A stretch of DNA of 13,008 nucleotides from Clostridia bacterium (lineage in GTDB: Bacteria; Bacillota_A; Clostridia; Oscillospirales; CAG-272): assembly GCA_017542695.1 (NCBI GenBank), contig JAFXWT010000149.1:1-13008 (forward strand), given 5' to 3'. The notes below the pieces were generated by a model, which was not told where the DNA came from, ran no database searches, and worked only from the letters and a program-made list of their open reading frames with translations. The position numbers and the translations under genes are program-made. Shown in pieces: positions 4,060-5,484 of this stretch; position 1 is the stretch's first letter, and every line of letters begins with the position of its first letter.

Positions 4060-5484
4060 ATGGGCGGTTTCTTCGGCGCTGTTGCAAAGCGCGACGTTAT
4101 CCCCGACGTTTTCTTCGGGACAGATTATCATTCCCATCTCGGAACGCGCCGCGGCGGCATGGCGGCATACGATGAGCAAATAGGCATTCAACGCGAAATA
4201 CACGATATCTCAAACTCGCCGTTCCGCACGAAATTTGCACGCATTTTCGAGGAAATGCGCGGCAAGGCGGCGATCGGCTGCATCAGCGATTACGATCCGC
4301 AGCCGCTGATAATCCGATCAAATCTCGGTGTTTACGCCATATCCATGACGGGCGTGATAACAAACGCCGACGAAATAATAAAAAAATATCTTTCAAGTAA
4401 CGGCGGTCACTTTTGCGCCATGACGGGCGGCGCCGTCAACTCGACGGAAATACTTGCCGCGCTGATAAATCAGAAGCCGACGTTCGTTGAGGGCATCAAA
4501 TACGCCGAAAGCGTCATCAATGGCACGGCGACGGTTCTGATACTTACCGAAAAAAACAGCATCATCGCCGCGCGCGACAAGCTCGGGCGGCTCCCTGTGC
4601 TGATAGGCAGAGGGGAAGACGGATATTGTGTTTCTTTTGAGTCGTTTGCGTGCCGGAAGCTCGGATTCGACGTCGAGAAAGAACTCGGACCCGGCGAGGT
4701 CGTCGAGATCAGCGCCGACGGCGTCAGAGTGCTTGCTTCAGCGGGCAAGGAAATGCGTATCTGCTCGTTTTTGTGGTCGTATTACGGCTATCCGACGTCG
4801 AGCTACGAGGGCGTGAACGTCGAGATGATGCGGTACAAAAACGGTGCGATCATGGCGGAAAACGACAAGGCGGCAAGTAACGCCGAGGGAGTGGACTACG
4901 TCGGCGGCGTTCCGGATTCAGGCACGCCTCACGCGATCGGCTACGCCAACAAGAGCGGCATTCCGTTTGCCCGCGCGTTCATAAAATACACGCCGACGTG
5001 GTCGCGCAGTTTCATGCCGACCGAACAGGTCGAACGCGACCGAGTCGCAAAAATGAAGCAGATACCCGTTCACGAGCTGATAAAAGGAAAGAGTCTGCTG
5101 TTTGTCGATGATTCGATCGTCCGCGGAACGCAAATGAAGGAAACCGTCGACTTTCTCTACGATCACGGCGCGCGAGAGGTGCATATCCGCTCCGCGTGCC
5201 CGCCGATAATGTACGGCTGCAAATACCTCAATTTCTCCCGCGCCACGAGCGACATGGAACTGCTTGCCCGCCGCGTCATTAAAGAGCTTGAAGGCGACGA
5301 GGGCTTCGATCACATCGACGAATACGCCGACGGCTCGACTGAACGCGGGAAAAAGCTCCGCGCGGCGATATGCGAGAAGATGCACTTCTCGTCTCTTGAA
5401 TTTCAGTCGCTCGACGGAATAATCAAAGCGATAGGAATCGAACCGTGCAAACTGTGCACATATTGCTGGAACGGAAAGGAATAA
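4060..5484 (+). CDS. purF: PurF-family amidophosphoribosyltransferase with a degenerate glutaminase site
   Basis: The 474-residue protein is collinear with PurF, which makes 5-phosphoribosylamine from PRPP and glutamine. The C-terminal half is intact: GVPDSG (283-288), the PRPP loop FVDDSIVRGT (348-357) and the CTYCWNGK end. Four Cys (235, 387, 466, 469) align with the Fe-S ligands of Bacillus PurF. The N-terminal Ntn domain keeps its fold markers (PGEVVEI, ARDKLGRLPVLIG), but it begins MGGFFGAV where active enzymes begin with catalytic Cys followed by GxxG. By eye the other E. coli glutaminase residues are also replaced: Arg26 by Leu27, Arg73 by Ser76, Asn101 by Thr97 and Asp127 by Ser128. 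The start is firm: the purC stop is in the same frame three codons upstream, so no Cys-bearing start can be hidden, and GGAG 4045-4048 fits ATG 4060. The enzyme probably uses free or delivered ammonia; this is inferred. Its place in a complete purine operon supports a PurF role. Confidence 0.9.
   Translation: MGGFFGAVAKRDVIPDVFFGTDYHSHLGTRRGGMAAYDEQIGIQREIHDISNSPFRTKFARIFEEMRGKAAIGCISDYDPQPLIIRSNLGVYAISMTGVITNADEIIKKYLSSNGGHFCAMTGGAVNSTEILAALINQKPTFVEGIKYAESVINGTATVLILTEKNSIIAARDKLGRLPVLIGRGEDGYCVSFESFACRKLGFDVEKELGPGEVVEISADGVRVLASAGKEMRICSFLWSYYGYPTSSYEGVNVEMMRYKNGAIMAENDKAASNAEGVDYVGGVPDSGTPHAIGYANKSGIPFARAFIKYTPTWSRSFMPTEQVERDRVAKMKQIPVHELIKGKSLLFVDDSIVRGTQMKETVDFLYDHGAREVHIRSACPPIMYGCKYLNFSRATSDMELLARRVIKELEGDEGFDHIDEYADGSTERGKKLRAAICEKMHFSSLEFQSLDGIIKAIGIEPCKLCTYCWNGKE

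Follow-up and report, generated by a model that had tools for sequence, protein, structure and literature searches.

The purF slot of a pur operon from a gut bacterium of the Clostridia is occupied by a PurF homologue belonging to a family in which, judged from the aligned sequences, the glutaminase half is dismantled and the synthase half is kept. This variant is quite likely an ammonia-only PRPP aminotransferase, which would make 5-phosphoribosylamine (PRA) from PRPP and free ammonia without glutamine. Bacteria carrying it as their only PurF probably use free ammonia at this step. In the proposed mechanism, this first step of purine synthesis would be carried out by the C-terminal phosphoribosyltransferase domain, and the N-terminal domain would keep its fold without the nucleophile and the glutamine-binding loop; as both are lost, ammonia would have to enter from solution. 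We infer both the catalytic activity and free ammonia as the donor from the conservation and co-occurrence data described below.

The pur operon and its PurF homologue

The window, i.e., the whole analyzed stretch of 13,008 nucleotides, contains a pur operon with the gene order purE, purC, PurF-like gene, purM, purN, PurO-like gene, purB, AICAR formyltransferase gene and purD. The following features were annotated:

2821..3324, + strand: purE (TIGR01162, 193 bits, above the cut-off)
3343..4053, + strand: purC (TIGR00081, above the cut-off)
4060..5484, + strand: glutaminase-less PurF homologue (474 aa), starting with MGGFFGAV, in the purF slot between purC and purM
5489..6532, + strand: purM (TIGR00878, 449 bits)
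6541..7173, + strand: purN (TIGR00639, 208 bits)
7160..7879, + strand: PurO-like IMP cyclohydrolase (NF003167, 67.5 bits, under its cut-off of 150)
7891..9324, + strand: purB (TIGR00928, 378 bits)
9334..10518, + strand: stand-alone AICAR formyltransferase, PRK07106 (NF005492, 686 bits)
10515..11801, + strand: purD, the next enzyme in the pathway (TIGR00877, 524 bits)
11801..13006, + strand: putative start of a large purL, an open ORF cut by the window end and assigned by its place

A cluster of proteins of about 1229 aa was found in 50 of 85 variant loci, mostly one gene past purD, and its member L056:15858-19544 was identified as TIGR01857 with 1887 bits. PurH is split in the window operon into the PurO-like IMP cyclohydrolase (7160..7879) and the separate AICAR formyltransferase (9334..10518), which is a second unusual feature of this operon. 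Upstream of it, at 204..2267, a CotH-kinase protein (PF08757, 108 bits) with a Thr/Ala-rich tail is encoded.

The variant reached 171.6 bits with the NCBIfam purF model TIGR01134, the cut-off of which is 350 bits, and shares 27-30% identity with three canonical PurF proteins. Among solved structures, B. subtilis PurF is its best sequence match. In the sources listed, the variant carries the ordinary amidotransferase name.

Loss in the glutaminase half and conservation in the synthase half

The following parts of the gene were distinguished:

4060..4749, + strand: degenerate Ntn glutaminase domain (residues 1-230), from the alignment of 81 sequences
4762..5466, + strand: span of the four Fe-S cysteines C235, C387, C466 and C469 (B. 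subtilis type), invariant in 90 rows
4984..5016, + strand: altered flexible PRPP/ammonia loop KYTPTWSRSFM (residues 309-319), from the alignment
5107..5130, + strand: PRPP-binding loop DDSIVRGT (residues 350-357), intact in 81/81

The window protein was aligned with 80 orthologues from genome contigs (the best 80 among 156 relatives), with E. coli K-12 PurF and with nine canonical clostridial PurF proteins. The latter have C, R, R, N and D at the positions of Cys1, Arg26, Arg73, Asn101 and Asp127 in nine of nine rows. The first-pass annotation of the gene at 4060 as a PurF with an altered glutaminase site could be confirmed, since Cys1 is replaced by Gly in 81/81 sequences (Gly2 in the window protein). 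The changes it had reported for Arg26, Asn101 and Asp127 also extend to all 81 sequences: Arg26 is always Leu (Leu27 in the window protein), the Asn101 column holds Ile 56, Val 20 and Thr five times (Thr97), and the Asp127 column contains Ser (45), Asn (10), Ala (8), Thr (7) and others, Asp never (Ser128). Only the proposed substitution of Arg73 by Ser76 was wrong. Here, the 8-residue loop with Arg73-Tyr74 is absent, in the window protein after Ile75, and both columns are gaps in 81/81. Gly102 is retained throughout (81/81). The variant has neither the N-terminal Cys nucleophile of the glutamine PRPP amidotransferase PurF nor Arg73 and Asp127, which we take to be glutamine-binding residues, nor Asn101, presumably the oxyanion-hole residue.

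A wider set was compiled from the best 120 proteins of each of three protein searches, with about 8000 candidates scored in each, and two plasmid query proteins; the family therefore comprises at least 362 members. Among these 362 relatives from the matches listed, the Cys1 column holds 328 Gly, 32 Ser, two gaps (N-terminal fragments) and no Cys; a gap in the Arg73 column and replacements of Asn101 and Asp127 were found in 362/362. Due to the absence of Cys1 from all 362 relatives listed, chance or a sequencing error is excluded as its cause. A missed start or a frameshift hiding the Cys was ruled out by Gly in 80/80 orthologous loci and by the stop codon of purC: as pointed out in the first annotation, the TGA at 4051-4053 lies in the same frame three codons upstream of the variant start, so that no upstream start could add a Cys. 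The window protein was also searched for another Cys or Thr as N-terminal nucleophile, and its MGGFFG start contains no Cys, Ser or Thr. Of the 121 proteins in the Peptoclostridium set (P0121, P0123-P0242), 32 have Ser in the Cys1 column, as do four of 58 rows taken from genome loci, where some genomes were counted twice. Such a Ser could in principle act as a nucleophile; all 32 Ser proteins also lack the Arg73 loop.

The N-terminal domain shows no decay, as 40 of its 230 columns are invariant among 73 homologues, compared with 61 of 244 in the remainder of the protein. It contains 19 invariant polar residues, of which 12 are not common to all three canonical rows. It is possible, if rather unlikely, that the dead glutaminase pocket became a new site, in which the invariant polar residues could serve to bind ammonium, a partner or a signal of nitrogen status; if so, ambient ammonia would directly gate the committed purine step in many gut anaerobes. 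The conservation of the domain is also what would be expected if it served as the docking site for a separate glutaminase, or for some other enzyme that releases ammonia, and the variant were supplied with glutamine nitrogen in this way, an explanation that we regard as unlikely on the genomic evidence presented in the next section.

The two-domain Ntn and PRTase fold, the PRPP loop and the four cysteines remain, as had been noted at first inspection. The PRPP loop VDDSIVRGT is invariant in 81/81 sequences. Lys326 is retained in 81/81 and Arg332 in 80/81, with Lys in the other one; in the window protein they correspond to Lys309 and Arg316, so that the variant has the PRPP-binding loop together with Lys326/Arg332. 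The four cysteines, presumably the Fe-S cluster ligands, are invariant in an alignment of 90 rows including three canonical PurF. C466 and C469 correspond to B. subtilis Cys437/Cys440.

The flexible loop is altered, in agreement with the earlier observation, and its sequence KYTPTW.RS is invariant in 73 homologues apart from the dotted position. A first structure model from 73 rows (pLDDT 70.8, pTM 0.57) was superseded by a model from 90 rows, in which residues 311-314 of this loop form the sole stretch of three or more residues with a pLDDT below 50. Furthermore, the alignment revealed an insertion near residues 400-440 unlike PurF. Since the flexible loop forms the PRPP site and the ammonia channel, its rewriting means that the acceptor or the donor could differ. 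The loop, the insertion and the location of some members outside pur operons would be in line with a phosphoribosyltransferase for another phosphoribosyl amine, unrelated to purine synthesis, but this is highly improbable in view of the conserved place before purM in the relatives of the window and of the co-occurrence with purD and purM.

Co-occurrence with the purine pathway, gene neighbourhood and nitrogen source

The presence of canonical PurF and of the variant was determined in 293 genomes of the class of genome G001, for which a completeness of at least 95% was requested; the genome of the window lies outside this sample. Canonical PurF over the cut-off was detected in 232 genomes, with a cut-off that found 13 of 14 control genomes and thus missed one. 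The variant was detected at E 1e-60 or better in 84 genomes, among them one fragment at a contig end (G239) and one variant in two pieces (G251). After checking of doubtful cases, 61 genomes have both forms, 171 only the canonical form, 23 only the variant and 37 neither. One genome without the variant (G186) has a canonical purF in two frames with an internal stop (G186:C2:621564-622882), possibly a sequencing error, and has kept purD. In an earlier set of 25 genomes of close relatives, unfiltered for completeness, canonical PurF was present in eight and absent in 17.

The genome-wide check for a second PurF, which had been proposed with the first annotation, thus identified canonical PurF in 61 of the 84 carriers and no other PurF in the remaining 23. 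In these variant-only genomes the variant gives the highest purF score, and no other match exceeds 120 bits. The runners-up (about 95-119 bits) cover the N-terminal domain only, in GlmS-like frames of 606-692 aa, or are something weaker. purD was found over the cut-off in 22 of the 23 variant-only genomes, compared with none of the 37 genomes lacking both forms (Fisher p 1.6e-15, uncorrected for kinship), of which one (G058) has a C-terminal purD piece. For purM, the corresponding numbers are 22/23 and 0/11, 11 of the 37 having been tested. The exceptions are G209, in which purD and a purL-size frame are missing although the variant and purM are present, and G312, where purM was found only as weak pieces. 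In G215 (1.7 Mb), the best-assembled variant-only genome with nearly one contig, the variant, purM, purD and a purL-size frame are located on a single contig of 1.67 Mb. According to the purD contrast, having the variant as the only PurF is associated with retention of the purine pathway, and this match is the strongest evidence that the variant would make PRA by itself.

Because draft and metagenome genomes are included, canonical PurF could merely have been missed in incomplete genomes, but this is scarcely conceivable: the requested completeness and the assembly of G215 into nearly one contig argue against it, and with purD and purM in 22 of 23 genomes each, it is not believable that purF alone should have been lost by chance time and again. 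The same 23 genomes bear on a second explanation, in which the variant is a pseudoenzyme without catalysis of its own that either serves canonical PurF as a regulatory subunit or senses nucleotides. The 61 carriers with canonical PurF would suit such a role, as would the adjacency of both genes in three of 80 loci and the crenarchaeal PurF', which according to the part of PMC3261824 available likewise occurs in genomes with PurF. It is nevertheless very unlikely, since 23 genomes have no other PurF, 22 of them with purD, and the PRPP catalytic loop is invariant. In the 61 carriers with both forms the variant may do something extra.

In the 85 variant loci, the neighbouring genes fall mainly into clusters identified as purM (60 loci), purN (53), purD (51), purL (50), PurO-like (48), purE (45), purC (39) and AICAR formyltransferase (39), where purD, purL and purE were each identified by one representative. 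purM follows the variant on the same strand in 60/85 loci. The variant ORF was resolved in 72 of the 85 loci and masked by antisense frames in the others, so that the neighbour counts are lower bounds. Ten further clusters, with six to 15 of 85 loci each, were assigned from representatives to pyrimidine genes, formate-THF ligase, SHMT and a formate/nitrite transporter. The transporter gene was found in 11/85 loci (e.g., L053 5012-5638), in ten of them two genes after the variant, and formate-THF ligase is also present beyond purL; a link to formate as one-carbon source is possible.

In three of 80 loci (L056, L070 and L077), the variant at position 10001 is directly followed by canonical purF from about 11450 on the same strand, i.e., the putative ammonia form adjoins the glutamine form. 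L095 also holds both genes. Among the variant loci from the class genomes, 19 of 20 could be resolved by gene calling (the exception being L174), and 15 of these 19 have no adjoining gene like the pur genes of the window. Together with the lack of purD in G209 and a GlsA in G215, this is a point against the ammonia-only reading.

In Peptoclostridium and two Bacteroidales (L092 15001-17800; L093 12001-15783; L094 12001-15904), pepT instead of pur genes lies after the homologue, in the Bacteroidales followed by gcvT. GcvT releases ammonia. These arrangements favour a docked nitrogen-delivering partner, and pepT appeared promising at first as a gene-neighbour candidate, but it was not seen within seven genes of the variant in the 19 resolved class loci. 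The identified neighbours also speak against such a partner, as they are pur, pyrimidine, formate-THF ligase, SHMT and formate/nitrite transporter genes. The large chain of carbamoyl-phosphate synthase is encoded in nine loci, some of which may therefore also have the glutaminase subunit of this enzyme nearby.

The search for a glutaminase covered two families. A GlsA-type glutaminase was found in only two of the 23 variant-only genomes (G066 and G215) and in none of 30 canonical-only genomes (of 171), and a stand-alone PurQ over the cut-off in none of the 23. In 22 of them, the best weaker PurQ match is inside a frame of 1226-1281 residues, the size of a large PurL. The initial proposal had been that the enzyme is either ammonia-dependent or fed by a separate glutaminase. 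The first part is strongly supported by the loss of the glutaminase residues throughout the family, the retained PRPP site, the position in the purF slot and the variant being the sole PurF in 23 genomes, 22 with purD, and the second part is not borne out by the GlsA and PurQ counts or by the neighbouring genes, which are mainly pur genes. All 43 full-length PurL proteins of the operon loci carry the GATase motif G[IV]CNGFQ, which means that PurF, rather than the whole pathway, has lost the use of glutamine. For the variant, the simplest donor is free ammonia. The ammonium channel Amt was detected in four of 23 variant-only compared with 17 of 30 canonical-only genomes, without control for kinship, and its scarcity is consistent with a life where ammonia is plentiful.

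Comparison with known systems and spread of the family

Compared with PurF (EC 2.4.2.14; TIGR01134; reference structures 1ao0/1gph from B. subtilis and 1ecf from E. coli), the variant shares the two-domain fold, the PRPP loop, the B. subtilis-type Fe-S cysteines and the place in the pur operon, but differs in the loss of Cys1, the Arg73 loop, Asn101 and Asp127 and in the rewritten flexible loop. AsnA beside AsnB is another case in which an ammonia-only enzyme catalyses a reaction that otherwise uses glutamine. AsnA has a fold unrelated to AsnB, whereas the variant and canonical PurF are homologous.

E. coli PurF without Cys1 retains ammonia use according to the available text of PMC3261824, as had been stated with the first annotation. 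The yeast PRPP amidotransferase makes PRA from ammonia as well, and its use in vivo depends on the ammonium of the medium, according to the accessible sections of PMC12017579. The crenarchaeal PurF', as described in the portion of Brown et al. (2011; PMC3261824) at hand, lacks the Cys, and ammonia dependence was suggested for it. Following this description, both groups are PurF homologues without the N-terminal Cys. Many crenarchaeal proteins have Ala or Val instead, compared with Gly, or Ser in some, in the bacterial variant, and PurF' always occurs beside PurF in the genomes studied there, whereas the bacterial variant is alone in 23 of 84 carriers. In the NAD synthetase family, ammonia-using and glutamine-using forms are distinguished, ammonia being the physiological donor of the single-domain form (PMC3376133, as far as its text was available). 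The best reading by analogy would be that the variant is to PurF as single-domain NadE is to glutamine-using NadE, with the difference, going by the same text, that the glutaminase domain is wholly absent in NadE and that the dead domain is kept and conserved in the PurF variant.

A search of the open-licence part of PubMed Central, mostly by titles, yielded no publication on this bacterial glutaminase-less PurF family. Within the scope of this search, a bacterial family with a deleted glutamine loop, alone in otherwise kept purine pathways, appears to be new. PurF is the textbook glutamine amidotransferase, and a family in gut anaerobes working without glutamine would tie purine supply to luminal ammonia. 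Inhibitors directed at the glutamine site would be expected not to act on the variant, which, if the ammonia-only reading is true, would provide a natural ammonia-only PurF for comparison with the published nucleophile mutants.

Similar sequences had been presumed to occur in other gut Clostridia under the name PurF. They were found there and also in kin of Peptoclostridium, Pelotomaculum, Desulfoscipio and Syntrophomonas as well as in Bacteroides and Parabacteroides. The suggested alignment and tree place the variant in a clade of its own, separate from canonical PurF, with a single branch (support 100) between the 81 variant and the 29 canonical rows. This tree of 110 rows (100 of them different, E. 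coli PurF included twice) was calculated with a quick method, carries a long-branch warning and is read here without a root or an age. The path separating both groups is very long, and no row examined is intermediate between them. Genomes with only the variant are dispersed through its part of the tree: for 45 genomes, 22 variant-only and 23 with both forms (two of the latter from the earlier close-relative set, G251 being left out), at least ten changes between the two states, in either direction, were counted.
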